A stretch of DNA of 64,000 nucleotides from Candidatus Mycalebacterium zealandia. GTDB taxonomy: Bacteria > Desulfobacterota_D > UBA1144 > Nemesobacterales > Mycalebacteriaceae. The first letter of the stretch is position 1. Each line of letters opens with the position of its first letter. The stretch covers positions 372,001 through 436,000 of the forward strand of contig CP046180.1 in NCBI GenBank assembly GCA_014075295.1, in the 5' to 3' direction. Below are positions 37,455 through 44,186 of the stretch, in pieces. The translations under genes and the position numbers were made by a program. The notes below the pieces were generated by a model that saw nothing but the letters and a program-made list of their open reading frames with translations, was not told the DNA's origin and made no database searches.

Positions 37455-38225
37455 ATGGAAAATTACTCTAAAAACCTTGAAAACCTTGCCAGCAGGTACA
37501 GAAGCCTGCGAATTACGGACAAAGAACCCGTTGATTTCGTGATCAACAATCTTCCGGCGTCCGGAGTTATTCAAGCCACCGATACCGGGTGCGGAGCCGG
37601 ACGATACGCGAAACTTTTTCTTGAGGCATTAGGGGAAAGAGTTTTTCTCAACTGCTTTGACACAAACGAATATATGCTTGATCAGCTCAAGACCTATCTC
37701 ACGGAAGGGGGCTTTTCAAACTTTTCCGCAAAACTCGCGGACGCGAGGGATGTTCCTCTTGAACAATCCTCTGTTGATGCGGTTTTCTGCTTCAACTCAA
37801 TTCATCACATAGGAATTGTCGGGTTTCTGCAAGAGGTTTCAAGAATTCTCAAAACCGGCGGGCGGGTTTTCATCTACACAAGATCAAGAGTCCAGAACGA
37901 CCGTACTGTCTGGGGGCTGCATTTTCCGCTTTTCCGGCGCAAGGAGTCTCGTCTTTATGAACCGGACGAGTTTGAGTTCAAGGTGGAAAAGTTTCCCGAG
38001 TTTGAGATTGAACTGACAAAAACCTTCACTTACGACCGCGTGAATTCGCCCGAAGATCTTGCCGAAAAAGCGTCCGAGAAGGCGTATTCCGCTTTTCTTT
38101 TCTATGAACCTGAAGAGTTTGTCAGGGCGTTTGAAAGATTTCGCGCAAACCTAAAACAGAGTTTTGACGGCGATATTGAATGGGAGGACGGAAAAATAAT
38201 GTATGTCCTCACAAAAACCTCTTAA
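37455..38225 (+). CDS. Class I SAM-dependent methyltransferase
   Basis: 256 residues. Motif I is ATDTGCGAGRYAKLF (residues 41-55), the acidic loop is CFDTNEYML, motif II is LADARDVPL and motif IV is VDAVFCFNSIHHI, with the usual VSRILKTGGRVFIYT after it. The C-terminal third is family-specific. The substrate is unknown. The gene ends 4 nt into znuA on the other strand. Confidence 0.85.
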   Translation: MENYSKNLENLASRYRSLRITDKEPVDFVINNLPASGVIQATDTGCGAGRYAKLFLEALGERVFLNCFDTNEYMLDQLKTYLTEGGFSNFSAKLADARDVPLEQSSVDAVFCFNSIHHIGIVGFLQEVSRILKTGGRVFIYTRSRVQNDRTVWGLHFPLFRRKESRLYEPDEFEFKVEKFPEFEIELTKTFTYDRVNSPEDLAEKASEKAYSAFLFYEPEEFVRAFERFRANLKQSFDGDIEWEDGKIMYVLTKTS

Positions 38226-39106
38226 TTGCTCAGGCAGTTCTTCAGAGAGCGCGCGAGGTTTTCCATCATTTCAAAATAAAGATTCGGGCCGGGTTCAATG
38301 CCCACGCCCAGAGGGTCAAGAAACGCGGTTCTCGCTCCGCTTCCCTCGGCCGCCGCCCGCATCCGTTTCTCACTGTATTGCGGTTCGCTGAAAACGCACA
38401 CTGCCCCGCTTTCGCGGATTTTGGCGCGGATATGTTTCAACCCTGCGGCTGATTGAGGAATTTCTGGATTTTCCGTTATTGAGCCTATCCCGTTCATGCT
38501 GTATTCGCTCTCAAAATAACGGTAGGCATCATGAAAGACGGCGTATGGGATGTCGCTGACGCCAGCAACTTCTTTCCGTATTGTTGCGTCCAGTTTTTTG
38601 AGTTTTTTAATGGTTTCCCGAGCGTTTTTTTTGTAAACATTTCTTTGGCGCGGATTGATTCTTGCCATCCATTTTGCCGCCGTTCTTACAATTTTTTCCG
38701 CATTTTTCGGAGACAGCCACACGTGCGGGTCGTTTTGTCCGGTGCTGTTTTTCAGGAGCGTGATGCCGGAAATTTCCGCGACCTCCGCCTTTGCAACTCC
38801 GGCAGGAAGCGAACGCAAAGGGTTGTGAAGAAAGGTCTCAAGCCCTTTGCTTACAAAAAAAACCGCTTTTGCCTCCGTGATTTTTTTCATCTGAGAGGGT
38901 TTCATACTAAACTCGTGGGGCGACTCGCCCGCAGGAACAATAAGAACCGTTTCGTTCACGCCGTGCGTAACCCCCGATACAAGCGAATGGAGCGGGGCAA
39001 TGCTTGCCGCAACCTGCAAACGCTCATTTGAGAGTGAGTTCGCCGCGGGCGCGAGAACGAGAAAAATCATGGTGAAAACCGCCGATATTTTCAAAAAAAG
39101 CCGCAT
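38222..39106 (-). CDS. znuA: Zinc ABC transporter substrate-binding protein
   Basis: 294 residues with a signal peptide (1 to about 24, ending AANS). Zinc ligands of the cluster A-I family are visible: His in GESPHEFSM, His in NDPHVWLSP, His in VFHDAYRYFE and Asp in FLDPLG. The charged His-rich loop of E. coli ZnuA is missing. It is periplasmic and delivers zinc to ZnuBC. It is transcribed away from zur-znuC-znuB across a shared Zur operator. Confidence 0.94.
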   Translation of the reverse strand: MRLFLKISAVFTMIFLVLAPAANSLSNERLQVAASIAPLHSLVSGVTHGVNETVLIVPAGESPHEFSMKPSQMKKITEAKAVFFVSKGLETFLHNPLRSLPAGVAKAEVAEISGITLLKNSTGQNDPHVWLSPKNAEKIVRTAAKWMARINPRQRNVYKKNARETIKKLKKLDATIRKEVAGVSDIPYAVFHDAYRYFESEYSMNGIGSITENPEIPQSAAGLKHIRAKIRESGAVCVFSEPQYSEKRMRAAAEGSGARTAFLDPLGVGIEPGPNLYFEMMENLARSLKNCLSN

Positions 39107-39120
39107 AATGTTCTCCTTGA

Positions 39121-39152
39121 CAAAAGAATGTTACATTATAACATTACTTTTG
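39121..39152. promoter_or_regulatory. Zur operator between znuA and zur
   Basis: Core AATGTTA-N5-TAACATT (39127-39145), flanked by CAAAAG (39121-39126) and CTTTTG (39147-39152), so the dyad covers about 32 bp. It matches the Fur/Zur family layout of a 7-bp inverted repeat. It lies in the 61-nt divergent region of znuA and zur, and can repress both directions when zinc is replete. Confidence 0.8.
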
Positions 39153-39167
39153 TTGAGCGCAAACTGA

Positions 39168-39632
39168 ATGAAGAACGGATGCAAAAATCATGACCGTTGT
39201 GTCGGAGAAATAACAACCTACGCCGAGCGCGTGTGTTCGGAGCGCGGGGTTGCGCTTACGCCTTTGAGGAAGCGCGTTCTGCGGATAGTTTCGCGCAGTC
39301 ACCGACCCGTGAAGGCTTATAAGGTGCTTTCCGAACTTTCACGCTCCGCGAAGCCGCCCACCGTTTACCGCACCCTTGATTTCCTGATTGAAAACGGTCT
39401 CGTTCACAAACTGTCAAGCATGTCTTCTTACTGCGCGTGTTTTCATCCCTCAAGCGGTCATTCCGAGTGCTTCTTTCTCATCTGCTCGGACTGCGGCGAG
39501 TCAAGGGAATTTTGCGGCTCCGCGCTTTCAAAAGCCGTTGACTCCGCGGTCACCCGCGAGGGTTTCAGCAAGGTGGAGACTGTTCTGGAAGTGCGGGGAA
39601 CCTGTCTTGAGTGCGGGAGAAGAAAAAATTGA
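39168..39632 (+). CDS. zur: Fur-family zinc uptake regulator
   Basis: 154 residues. The winged helix spans about 20-80 (TPLRKRVLRI and PPTVYRTLDFLIENGLVHK). Structural zinc is bound by two Cys pairs, CSDC (106-109) and CLEC near the C-terminus. A His/Cys-rich regulatory region (CACFHPSSGHSECFF) fits zinc sensing rather than iron. The assignment as Zur rests on the znu neighbours and the operator. It overlaps znuC by 4 nt if znuC starts at TTG 39629. Confidence 0.92.
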   Translation: MKNGCKNHDRCVGEITTYAERVCSERGVALTPLRKRVLRIVSRSHRPVKAYKVLSELSRSAKPPTVYRTLDFLIENGLVHKLSSMSSYCACFHPSSGHSECFFLICSDCGESREFCGSALSKAVDSAVTREGFSKVETVLEVRGTCLECGRRKN

Positions 39633-40366
39633 GCGAAGTTTTTATGGAATCGCACGAAGTTTCGTTTTCAAGGGACGGAAATCTGATTCTTCAAGATGTT
39701 TCGCTTGAAATTGCCAAAGGTGATTTTGTGTCTGTTGTCGGTCCCAACGGAGCGGGGAAAACCACTTTGATTAAGGTTCTCACGGGCGTTCTGTCTCCGG
39801 ATTCGGGTGTGTGCGAGCGCGACCCCGGAGTCAAAATCGGCTATATGCCGCAGAGAATTGAGAGGATGGACTACATTCCCATTTCGGCGGGGCGGTTCAT
39901 CGGGCTCGGCGGAGCGGCGCGCCCGGAACTTGAAGAAGCGTGCCGCCGCGCGGGAGTTTCGGGAATTCTGGACAGCGAAATGAGCGCGCTGTCGGGCGGC
40001 GAGATTCAGCGTGTTCTGCTTGCCCGCGCACTTGCGGCGGGTCCGCATCTTCTTGTGCTTGACGAGCCCGCGCAAAATCTTGACGTTTCGGGGCAACTGG
40101 AGTTTTACAAACTCATTGAAGCGATTCACCGCGAGCACGGCGTGGCGGTTTTAATGGTGTCGCATGATCTCCATATGGTTATGGCTTCAACAAAAAAGGT
40201 GGTCTGTCTTTACGGGCATGTGTGTTGCGCGGGCGAGCCGAAAGAGATTGCCAGAGACCCCGAATTTATTTCAATGTTCGGCGAGGACATGGTGCGTCTT
40301 ATGTCCGTTTATTCCCACGCGCATGAGCATACTCATGGGCATCGCATGAAAGGGGGCGCGGAGTGA
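39629..40366 (+). CDS. znuC: Zinc ABC transporter ATP-binding protein
   Basis: About 245 residues. Walker A GPNGAGKTT, signature LSGGEIQRV, Walker B LLVLDEPAQNLD and the switch His in MVSHDLH. The C-terminus is His-rich (HAHEHTHGH), which may bind zinc. The start is uncertain: TTG 39629 has GGGAG upstream and overlaps the zur stop; ATG 39644 and GTG 39611 are in frame. Confidence 0.93.
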   Translation: MSEVFMESHEVSFSRDGNLILQDVSLEIAKGDFVSVVGPNGAGKTTLIKVLTGVLSPDSGVCERDPGVKIGYMPQRIERMDYIPISAGRFIGLGGAARPELEEACRRAGVSGILDSEMSALSGGEIQRVLLARALAAGPHLLVLDEPAQNLDVSGQLEFYKLIEAIHREHGVAVLMVSHDLHMVMASTKKVVCLYGHVCCAGEPKEIARDPEFISMFGEDMVRLMSVYSHAHEHTHGHRMKGGAE

Positions 40367-41178
40367 CGGAACCATTTATCATTCGCGCCGCGCTTGCGGG
40401 AATCGGGGTTGCTCTTGCCGCTGGCATACTCGGCTGTTTTGTCGTTTGGAGAAGAATGGCTTACTTTGGCGACTCTCTTTCTCATTCGGCGCTTGCGGGA
40501 ATTCCACTCGGACTGCTTGCGGGAATGAATCCGGACTACGGGATTTTTGCGGTTGTTATTGTTTTCTCTTTTCTGCTTGCCGTTGTTTTCCGGGGCGGGG
40601 CTATCGCTCCCGACACCGTTCTCGGCATCATCGCCCACGGCTCTCTCGCGGTTGGAATAGTGGCGATTTCTCTGTCCGGAGTTCCGGTTTTCCACCTTCA
40701 TTCAACTCTCTTCGGCGATATTCTGACCGTGGGCGCGCGCGACATCGTGTGGATATACGTCTGTGCCGCCGTGGTCATTGCCGCGCTCGCGCTCAACTGG
40801 GACTCGCTTGTGCTTATGACAATCAGCGACGATTTGGCGAAAGCCGAAGGCGTCAACACATTCCGGCTCGGGTTTCTTCTGATGTTTCTGATGGCGGTTG
40901 TGGTGGCGGTGTCTTTGCGCGCCGTGGGTGTTTTGCTGGTTACTTCAATGCTGATTATTCCCGCCGCCGCCGGGCGGATGTTCGCGCGGTCGCCCGAAAT
41001 GATGGCGGTTTTATCATGCGCGGTTGGAGTCGCGTCCGTTCTGGCGGGAATCTACGGCTCTTTGCTTTACGACACGCCTTCGGGTCCGTCGATCGTTACG
41101 GCGGCCGCAGTGTTTTTTGTCATTTTATTTGCCGGCTCAATCATGTTTGAGCGGGTGTTCAAAAAAAGGAGAATTTAA
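40363..41178 (+). CDS. znuB: Zinc ABC transporter permease
   Basis: 271 residues, ABC-3 type permease with about 8 hydrophobic segments. DSLSHSALAGIPLG near residue 38 is the conserved cytoplasmic motif of the ZnuB/MntB family. GTG 40363 overlaps the znuC stop (GTGA). It carries zinc across the inner membrane. It is followed by a His-rich outer-membrane protein gene with a 1-nt gap. Confidence 0.94.
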   Translation: MTEPFIIRAALAGIGVALAAGILGCFVVWRRMAYFGDSLSHSALAGIPLGLLAGMNPDYGIFAVVIVFSFLLAVVFRGGAIAPDTVLGIIAHGSLAVGIVAISLSGVPVFHLHSTLFGDILTVGARDIVWIYVCAAVVIAALALNWDSLVLMTISDDLAKAEGVNTFRLGFLLMFLMAVVVAVSLRAVGVLLVTSMLIIPAAAGRMFARSPEMMAVLSCAVGVASVLAGIYGSLLYDTPSGPSIVTAAAVFFVILFAGSIMFERVFKKRRI

Positions 41179-41182
41179 GATA

Positions 41183-42352
41183 ATTACCATATTCAAACCG
41201 GTTTTTGCGGGTTTTGTCCTGCTGTGCGTTTTTACTCTTACCGCTTTCGGGGCGGTTCATGTTGACGGGCATTTTGATGTGAGAATTCATATGGACAGGG
41301 TTGTGGAGTCAAACGAGACGAAGGTTTACGAAGCGTATTCCGATTCCCACTTTACCGCCGAACTGTTTTTAGGCAAAGGGTTTTCCATTTCGGCGGAACT
41401 GCTTGTTGAAGGAGAACCCGCCGGGCATCAGCACGAGCATGGAGATGACCAGGTTGATCCGCCGCCCGCAAGCGGGCTTTTTTTCACGGACCACACGGTT
41501 TCTCTGGACGGGTTTGCGCTGAATTTTGCGCGCGGCTTCGGAAACAAAAACGCCGCTTTTTACGGCGGCAAGTTCACGCCGGTTGTCGGTTTGGACGTGC
41601 ATGATTTCCCCGGAGTGTACTCATACCGGGCGATTCACGAATATGAAATAGAGTCGCGCATCGGACTTGGCGGGCTGTTGGGTTTTGACGGCGGCGGACT
41701 GGGCAGGCACGGCATTGATTTTTCAGCCTTTGCCGAGGACACAACAATTTTCAGCAATGGGGAACAGCGTCTGCGCAAGAGAGACGGAGGGGTTTCCAAT
41801 ACGGGAGACCTGTCATCTTTCGCGTTTTCACTCGGAGGCGGGGATTTCTTTCCTCTAAAAGAAGGCTTTTTTGCCGACTGGCTTTCGGGTTTTTCCTACC
41901 GTTTGGGCTACGCACGGCAGGCACAAGGGGTGGGCAACGAAACGGACGAGGGCAGATTTTCTTTTTCAGCGCAGGGTATTTACCAACTCACCGAAAACCT
42001 CTCCGTACGTTCCGTAAACGAATATGTCCGCATCAAAAATCTTGAGGGGCATTCCGGGCATGACCGCTCTCATTACACTTCCGCGGTCGGTTTTGACTGG
42101 AAATTGTGGACGTTCGCGTGTAGCGCGTCTTTAACCGGAAACAAGGGAGCGTCCGAACCCGATGAAAATCTTGACGGCTCGGCTTTCAGCTTTTCCCTGT
42201 CTCGCAAAATAGGAAACGCGAAAATCGGAGCCGGTTACCGGAGGGTAAAAGAGGAAGGGGAACACACGGGCAGGATAGGTGTTCTTTTGAGTTTTGACGG
42301 CGGCTTTTCGTCACTTGCCCCCGGCGCGTCGCACGACGGACATGTTCATTAA
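41183..42352 (+). CDS. His-rich outer-membrane beta-barrel protein of the zinc operon, non-canonical start
   Basis: About 390 residues. A signal peptide (FKPVFAGFVLLCVFTLTAFG) is followed by alternating strands typical of porin-like barrels. A His/Asp loop (GHQHEHGDD) lies near residue 80, and the protein ends SHDGHVH. No ATG, GTG or TTG occurs in frame between the znuB stop and the signal peptide. AAGGAG (41166-41171) is followed by ATA at 41180 and ATT at 41183, suggesting an AUU or AUA start. The nearest in-frame ATG (41024) lies inside znuB. Probably under Zur. Zinc binding or outer-membrane uptake is inferred from His content and context. Confidence 0.75.
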   Translation: MTIFKPVFAGFVLLCVFTLTAFGAVHVDGHFDVRIHMDRVVESNETKVYEAYSDSHFTAELFLGKGFSISAELLVEGEPAGHQHEHGDDQVDPPPASGLFFTDHTVSLDGFALNFARGFGNKNAAFYGGKFTPVVGLDVHDFPGVYSYRAIHEYEIESRIGLGGLLGFDGGGLGRHGIDFSAFAEDTTIFSNGEQRLRKRDGGVSNTGDLSSFAFSLGGGDFFPLKEGFFADWLSGFSYRLGYARQAQGVGNETDEGRFSFSAQGIYQLTENLSVRSVNEYVRIKNLEGHSGHDRSHYTSAVGFDWKLWTFACSASLTGNKGASEPDENLDGSAFSFSLSRKIGNAKIGAGYRRVKEEGEHTGRIGVLLSFDGGFSSLAPGASHDGHVH

Positions 42353-42356
42353 TTCC

Positions 42357-42728
42357 TTATACGATTAAGAACGCGAAAAAGAACCCGACCGCGTAAACCG
42401 CGACTGAAAACAGCACAATCACAAGGCTCAAACGTCTGAGGCGCATACACATTTGCGCCGCCCGCGGCTCAATCGGGCACGGGGCGTTTCTCTGCGCGTA
42501 GCGCGCCGCCGCCGCGATTGCGAGCAAAAGCCCGGCGACCGTGAAAACCAGAGTCTTGTGCTCCGAAAGCCACACAAGTTCCGGAAACGCGCTCACAAGC
42601 CCTGCTGTTACGGCGCCAAGCCCAACGCTTACAAAAAGCGCGGGCAGTGCGCAGCACACAAGCGTTCCCGTGGATGTCAGCAGGGAGAAAAACGGCAGAA
42701 CCGCATCTTTCCAGCCAATCTGTTTCAC
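42357..42728 (-). CDS. MerT-like heavy-metal transport membrane protein
   Basis: 123 residues, three predicted membrane helices (about 10-38, 55-76, 98-121). A vicinal Cys pair (Cys25-Cys26) sits in the first helix, as in MerT, where it carries Hg2+ inward. A further Cys84 and Cys93 lie in the loop before helix 3. ATG overlaps the stop of the HMA gene (ATGA). Paired with a MerP-like protein directly upstream. The metal is not known. A decayed partial copy is at 44221-44324. Confidence 0.7.
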   Translation of the reverse strand: MKQIGWKDAVLPFFSLLTSTGTLVCCALPALFVSVGLGAVTAGLVSAFPELVWLSEHKTLVFTVAGLLLAIAAAARYAQRNAPCPIEPRAAQMCMRLRRLSLVIVLFSVAVYAVGFFFAFLIV

Positions 42729-43111
42729 CGTTTGCCTCCTTTCTTATAGCGCGAGATTTTAGCGCTCGCGTAGCCTGAATCTTCCAGAAATTTTCTTACC
42801 TGCTTATCGGAAAGGTTTTTTCCTTTTTTTACATAAAGGGTAACGGACTTGTGTTTCAGGTTGACATACGCTTCCTCAATCGCGCCGGTTTTGAGAAAAA
42901 CCTTTTGTATGGACCGTGCGCAGAAATCACACACAAGCCCGGTTACCTTAATGTGAATTATTTCTTCCGAAGAAATCGGGCTGTCCGGTTCTTCAATCCG
43001 CGCTTCTTCCGAATGTTTGTGCGAGTGGTCTTCGTCATGCCCGGCGTTTGCCTGACCAAAGGCGACAGTCGTGATGACCACTGCCGTTAAAATTGTTTTT
43101 TTCAGTTTCAT
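42725..43111 (-). CDS. Periplasmic HMA-domain (MerP-like) metal-binding protein
   Basis: 128 residues. Signal peptide 1-23 (ending ANA), a His/Asp-rich linker (HDEDHSHKHSEE), then a heavy-metal-associated domain with the CxxC at Cys61 and Cys64 (TGLVCDFCARSIQK). It probably passes a soft or transition metal ion to the MerT-like protein encoded next, with which it overlaps by 4 nt. GGAG precedes the ATG. Confidence 0.85.
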   Translation of the reverse strand: MKLKKTILTAVVITTVAFGQANAGHDEDHSHKHSEEARIEEPDSPISSEEIIHIKVTGLVCDFCARSIQKVFLKTGAIEEAYVNLKHKSVTLYVKKGKNLSDKQVRKFLEDSGYASAKISRYKKGGKR

Positions 43112-43130
43112 TTTTCTTTCTCCTTTTTGT

Positions 43131-43766
43131 TTAAAATCGCCTTATGAAATTCAGCGTCAATTTTCCGTTAAAACTCCAGCCGATCTCAAAAAGCGAATCT
43201 CCTTTGAAAAAACGCGCGAGTGGCGTTATTTCAGTCTTATCTTCATAGTCCGTAGACGGATAGTGCGAAACTTCAAGCATCAACCATGTGTGAAGAGAGC
43301 CAAAATCGGCGACATAAGGCGCCAGTCCGGCCCTCGCGGACTGCCGGAAAGAGTTTTCCCGCCCGCCGATTGTGCCAACCCGGTTTTCGTAGCGGATAAA
43401 CAGCCTTCTGGTTTCCCAGTCCGCAGCCAATCCCGAAAAACCCGTAAAGGAAATGTCATCATTATCCCACGCGGCCCCCCCCCCCCCTTTGAAGTAGAGA
43501 TTTGCCTGCGATTCCCGATTGTTAACCCGTTTCAGCAGAACATTGACCTGCAACGCGCCGGCGAAAGCGTTTTTATCACGAATGTGAAACCCCCTGACCC
43601 CGACCGAATGTCGCGCGGACGGCGAATAATGCAGATGAACTGAGGTGTTTGCTCTGTTGTGCATCTGCATAACCGTCCATCCTCCCGGATATGACACGGG
43701 TCTTGCCAGCGTTGCGGGCGACTGCATTAACGCAATTACGATAATTGCTATATTTCTCTTTCTCAT
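43131..43766 (-). CDS. Outer-membrane-type protein with a 13-G phase-variation tract
   Basis: 211 residues. Signal peptide 1-22 (ending LARP region), then a conserved core with VSYPGGWTVMQM, VHLHYSPSARHSVG and YENRVGTI; it ends in an aromatic residue (NFIRRF), as outer-membrane barrels do. The family resembles conserved proteins of metal-resistance clusters, with no established function. A run of 13 G encodes Gly94-97 and the first base of Ala98. With 13 G the frame is full length, with 14 it stops four codons on, and with 12 it ends after about 69 foreign codons. ATG 43766 is chosen because it starts the signal peptide. Confidence 0.75.
   Translation of the reverse strand: MRKRNIAIIVIALMQSPATLARPVSYPGGWTVMQMHNRANTSVHLHYSPSARHSVGVRGFHIRDKNAFAGALQVNVLLKRVNNRESQANLYFKGGGGAAWDNDDISFTGFSGLAADWETRRLFIRYENRVGTIGGRENSFRQSARAGLAPYVADFGSLHTWLMLEVSHYPSTDYEDKTEITPLARFFKGDSLFEIGWSFNGKLTLNFIRRF
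43475..43487 (-). repeat. Poly-G(13) contingency tract inside the outer-membrane protein gene
   Basis: Thirteen uninterrupted C on the plus strand (G on the coding strand). It is the only homopolymer of this length I saw in the window. Such tracts change length by slippage and switch genes on and off. It could also be miscounted by sequencing. Confidence 0.75.
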
Positions 43767-43826
43767 AAAATCTCTGCTTGAAAAATTTCGCAAGCCGAAT
43801 TTCACGGCCCAAAAACGGCGGAGATA

Positions 43827-44186
43827 TCAGACGAGTATGTGTTTTGTGAGCAGAAAAATCGGTCGGTGCCGGTTTTGAGTGACGGCGCGCGGCGCTGTTT
43901 TTATTTCCGTGTCTGTTAATTTGTAGAAAACAAAACGCGGAGTGTTCTCCAAAAGATGTTTTGTTTTTCCTGATTGCTTGTTTTCGACTGACGACTGCTG
44001 TGTGTTAAGACAGTCTGCAAAGGACACGTGTCCGCAGTCCTGACGAGAATTATGACCCGGGCAGTCTGCGGCGCTGGAATGTCCCGTGTGCTCCGCCCCG
44101 CCCGACATCGGGCACGGCATTGCGCTTGAACCCGCAAGGGAGCCCGCGAAAACAAAAGCGAAAACCAAAACCGCCACACGCAACAT
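43827..44186 (-). CDS. Cys/His-rich periplasmic small protein of the metal operon
   Basis: 119 residues. Signal peptide 1-22, then MPCPMSGG, HTGHSSAADCPGH and DCGHVSFADC: four Cys and several His within about 40 residues, likely metal ligands. The C-terminal half is unrelated basic sequence. No named family is recognised, though it resembles small proteins in copper or mercury loci. It is first in the minus-strand run of four envelope genes. No strong Shine-Dalgarno is visible. Confidence 0.6.
   Translation of the reverse strand: MLRVAVLVFAFVFAGSLAGSSAMPCPMSGGAEHTGHSSAADCPGHNSRQDCGHVSFADCLNTQQSSVENKQSGKTKHLLENTPRFVFYKLTDTEIKTAPRAVTQNRHRPIFLLTKHILV

Follow-up and report, generated by a model that had tools for sequence, protein, structure and literature searches.

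A candidate poly-G contingency locus in an outer-membrane barrel gene of a metal-type operon of Candidatus Mycalebacterium zealandia

Does a run of 13 G residues inside a small outer-membrane protein gene of Candidatus Mycalebacterium zealandia act as a switch of this gene, or is it a passive feature of a glycine-rich site? Most documented cases of repeat-driven phase variation come from host-adapted pathogens and commensals, and a literature search on Dadabacteria (the presumed phylum) and phase variation found no paper. The locus was analysed within a window of 64,000 nucleotides (contig CP046180.1, positions 372,001 to 436,000), to which coordinates given without a prefix refer, and was compared with related genomes.

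The tract and its effect on the reading frame

The tract is located at positions 43475-43487 (C1:415475-415487), where 13 C on the plus strand correspond to 13 G on the coding strand of a 211-codon gene (positions 43131-43766, minus strand). At its present length the reading frame stays open over 211 aa from the ATG, and on both points the preliminary description of this DNA was accurate. The run covers codons 94-98, which together with the flank read AAA GGG GGG GGG GGG GCC. It is the longest G/C run of the window (the runner-up has 6 residues), and a first-order Markov model, with G and C taken together, predicts approximately 0.001 runs of at least 13 residues per 64 kb and 0.017 per 1.16 Mb. 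GGG constitutes 16% of glycine codons, the probability of four consecutive GGG codons is ~7e-4, and every other glycine run of the window is composed of mixed codons; the amino acids alone are therefore insufficient to explain the tract. Within the window there is nothing notable among other tandem repeats, and a search of viral contigs with the tract and its flank gave no match.

Simulation of altered lengths revealed that 14 G yield a product of 101 aa, ending with RVG and a stop, as expected from the earlier proposal that one extra G would end the protein within about four codons. A wrong tail followed by a stop had also been proposed for one fewer G, and this was found for 12 G (161 aa), the tail being of about 65 residues and not 69. 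The frame is brought back at 10 G and 16 G. In the structural model described below, the break falls inside strand 5 of 12 (strand 87-101), and the frameshifted products would lose the last seven strands. The locus thus combines properties by which contingency loci are recognized: gain or loss of one unit alters the reading frame (at 12 or 14 G the product is cut short), the repeat (13 G) is far beyond chance length, and the gene is intact and conserved, being open in all homologues found.

A conserved outer-membrane barrel of no named family

Searches of Pfam and NCBIfam assigned the 211-aa protein to no family, and comparison with PDB sequences gave no match better than E=0.44. An AlphaFold2 model built from 32 homologues (mean pLDDT 88) comprises an N-terminal helix, corresponding to a signal peptide, and 12 beta-strands. 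Its Foldseek matches are outer-membrane barrels, with KdgM-type porins among the best, and the outer-membrane location suggested initially is consistent with this predicted 12-strand barrel. The fold resembles those of the small monomeric porins KdgM and NanC (Foldseek E ~3e-4 for KdgM; TM-scores of 0.52 and 0.62), but at 7-11% identity this is a generic barrel resemblance with no sign of a shared function. A TonB-dependent receptor of the hmbR/HpuB type, which would be a large barrel with a plug domain and be evident from its sequence, was also considered and rejected, given the length of 211 aa, the 12 strands, the lack of a Pfam match and the best PDB E-value of 0.44.

Homologues of the barrel are encoded in 19 of the 58 genomes of the class (source genome included) and in 39 further named contigs, mostly alpha- and gammaproteobacterial. 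None of those from the 18 related genomes and the 39 contigs contains an internal stop. The barrel shares ~62-63% identity with its counterpart in the sister species, a value between those of the HMA-like (53%) and MerT-like (75%) proteins encoded downstream. Since the frame is intact and the conservation lies between those of the operon neighbours, the gene is not decaying.

The metal-type operon

The presumed operon, read on the minus strand, begins with a gene for a small secreted Cys/His-rich protein of 119 aa (positions 43827-44186), whose sister-species orthologue is 38% identical. The barrel gene is followed by a gene (positions 42725-43111) for an HMA-like protein with a signal peptide and a GLVCDFCA motif, which matches CopZ models at E ~1e-6 and PF00403 at E=1.5e-4 (22.5 bits, under the curated cut-off of 24.8). 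The next gene (positions 42357-42728), overlapping the HMA stop by 4 nt, encodes a MerT-like small membrane protein with a weak match to the MerTP model. Adjacent to these genes is a zinc-uptake block (positions 38222-42352), composed of znuA (minus strand) and of genes for a fur-type regulator, ZnuC, ZnuB and a His-rich barrel-like protein (plus strand), which is syntenic in the sister species.

In most homologous loci the HMA-like gene follows the barrel gene, and the MerT-like gene is a conserved neighbour in 43 loci. The order barrel, HMA-like, MerT-like recurs in most homologous loci and is often preceded by a gene for a small secreted protein rich in Cys, His and Met. Gene content and this conserved order are in keeping with the metal-type setting recognized earlier. 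They suggest copper or a similar metal, a reading kept at that strength because the HMA match is just under the curated cut-off. In one homologous locus (L018) a metal-sensitive repressor (PF02583) is encoded near the barrel gene. In many proteobacteria the whole four-gene set, which here spans positions 42357-44186, is kept as a unit.

Origin of the tract

At the site of the tract the sister species, in which the gene order is conserved, has KWAAGAG. Relatives carry K-[GS]-G-x-G or K-[SGA]-G-x-G, and other class members K-[GST]-G-x-G, in agreement with the Gly/Ser stretch that the preliminary description had placed in related proteins. The codons of relatives are mixed at this site (e.g. GGC GGC CTT GGC), and no G run longer than 6 occurs in any barrel homologue checked. 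Since these homologues are without the tract, it is recent and particular to the source species among those compared. Judging from the aligned residues, it arose in the source lineage without gain or loss of a residue; with no residue gained, 13 would be the length that keeps the barrel in register.

Other long G tracts in the genus

A census of the source genome by pattern searches revealed five G runs of at least 9 residues (14, 13, 10, 9 and 9). The longest (C1:543499-543512; L052:7500-7513) precedes by 30 nt the ATG of a gene (L052:5610-7469) whose 619-aa product matches PF05658 (E=6.5e-41) and PF03895 (E=9e-7), both over the cut-off, and is thus a YadA-type trimeric autotransporter adhesin. 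One of the 9-G tracts (C1:2504-2512; L121:2504-2512) is upstream of a promoter-like site, TTGACA-17-TATTAT, and of a second YadA-type adhesin gene. Among the YadA-head matches listed for the source genome, all fall in these two genes. The probability that two of five G runs would fall at most 200 nt upstream of two adhesin starts is ~1e-6 under random placement, a value computed post hoc. Promoter scans around the adhesin tracts gave nothing informative. The repeats of the second adhesin run off the contig start.

The other 9-G run (C1:18634-18642; L122:3635-3643) is inside a fused CbiG/CobJ/CbiJ cobalamin biosynthesis gene, at about residue 512. It lies between two domain matches, and slippage there would uncouple the domains.

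The sister species carries an 11-G tract (G001:C54:8446-8456; L084:3047-3057) 31 nt before the ATG of a gene for a Calx-beta repeat surface protein of at least 2804 aa. No long G run was found upstream of the six YadA-type genes of this species whose upstream DNA was read, and no adhesin at the orthologous TauE neighbourhood. Among 100 other genomes searched, 36 contain runs of at least 11 G, several of them at contig ends and artefact-like.

Switch or passive homopolymer

Taken together, the observations indicate that the 13-G tract is probably a simple-sequence-repeat contingency locus of a known kind, placed in a gene family and a lineage that are both undescribed. This reading is favoured because of the outlier length and the all-GGG codons where relatives have mixed ones, and because the frame is intact, the conservation of the gene is on a par with that of the operon neighbours and a truncated product would break off in the fifth of 12 strands. 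It is further favoured because adhesin-side G tracts, independent of the barrel tract, exist in the same genus. At a run of 13 G slipped-strand mispairing is to be expected; within the barrel coding region it would leave the gene ON at 10, 13 or 16 G and turn it OFF at any other length. In the OFF state, expression of the HMA and MerT-like genes, co-transcribed with the barrel gene, may be dampened as well. The companion G tracts, mainly upstream of large adhesin genes, would tune transcription by their length. What we infer is that the tract slips, that switching is reversible and that it brings a selective benefit; the benefit could be a varied exposure of the surface barrel to phage, predators or a host or, alternatively, a tuned passage of metal.

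Several observations count against a switch. The tract length comes from one assembly, the barrel gene of the sister species is without a tract, as are the upstream regions of its six YadA-type genes, and the run inside the cobalamin gene indicates that a long tract need not be a surface switch. The source genome encodes MutS, with which slippage may be held down, and classic in-ORF tracts are often nearer the 5' end.

The main alternative is a neutral or mildly harmful homopolymer, in which a glycine-rich beta-strand drifted to GGG codons and was tolerated, slippage being mutational load only. The site is ancestrally glycine-rich, the tract is limited to one species and the cobalamin biosynthesis gene also harbours a 9-G run, all of which would fit such a drift. 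However, runs of such length are extremely rare in the source genome, its other glycine-rich stretches retain mixed codons and the remaining long tracts cluster at adhesin genes, which makes this explanation rather unlikely.

A sequencing or assembly artefact, by which the true length would be different or the poly-G spurious, is very improbable. Long reads are error-prone in homopolymer length, and spurious-looking poly-G of up to 51 G occurs at contig ends of some draft relatives, where it was set aside as a probable artefact. The barrel tract, in contrast, is inside a single 1.16 Mb contig, has unique flanks, is in frame and exactly matches the ancestral residue count, although its assembled length could be off by one.

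Long homopolymers can also slip in expression, giving a fixed mix of full-length and short protein from unchanged DNA, but the shifted frames encode unrelated ends (the 101- and 161-aa products) and no conserved alternative product, and relatives are without the tract, so that this explanation can hardly be entertained.

Precedents and significance

Of the initial proposal of phase variability, the barrel, the metal-type operon and the truncating tract have stood, and the adhesin-side G tracts add to it; its premise that such variation would be unusual in metal handling fails, since hmbR and hpuA of Neisseria meningitidis are switched by poly-G within the ORF, hpuA being ON at 7, 10, 13, 16 and 19 G (PMC3786947). 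The likeness lies in the poly-G placed within the coding region of outer-membrane haem iron uptake genes and in ON lengths that differ by threes (PMC3786947). The Neisseria proteins are of other kinds, two large transmembrane receptors (HmbR and HpuB) and a lipoprotein (HpuA), whereas the gene studied here encodes a 211-aa, 12-strand barrel, with no sequence relative detected among solved proteins, in an HMA/MerT-type operon.

The companion tracts have a parallel in uspA1 of Moraxella catarrhalis, in which an upstream G tract gives low mRNA levels at 8-10 G and high levels at 11-12 G (PMC7302503). The same layout is seen in the source genome, where 14 G precede a YadA-type adhesin gene, and in the sister species, where 11 G precede the gene for the Calx-beta protein; length-dependent transcription would be uspA1-like. 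This likeness, drawn across lineages, concerns the companion tracts as known from their sequence and not the barrel gene. It is conceivable, though we would not count on it, that phase variation in this genus of small-genome uncultured bacteria is compact and comprises three or four poly-G switches, of which two or three would belong to giant adhesins and one to the barrel of the undescribed, conserved metal operon. If so, this would add a functional class to the known phase-variable genes, in a lineage for which the mechanism does not seem to have been reported.

The novelty lies in the gene family and the lineage and not in the mechanism. Phase variation in a small uncultured genome, with adhesin companions, would hint at surface pressure from a host, phage or predators. 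It would also mark an unnamed barrel, conserved with HMA-like and MerT-like proteins in many alpha- and gammaproteobacteria, as worth switching off.

The 10-G run of the source genome (C1:1049204-1049213; L050:3205-3214) has no clear gene around it. It is flanked by sequence (TTTTTTGGGG...GAGTC) similar to that next to the 14-G adhesin tract and is perhaps a relic copy of the upstream region of a lost adhesin gene. A 14-G tract of the sister species (G001:C8:57-70; L083:57-70) lies next to a type II CRISPR array that is accompanied by cas9, at one end of its contig, and its flank, TAAAA(A/G)C..CCCTC, resembles the flank of the Calx-beta tract.
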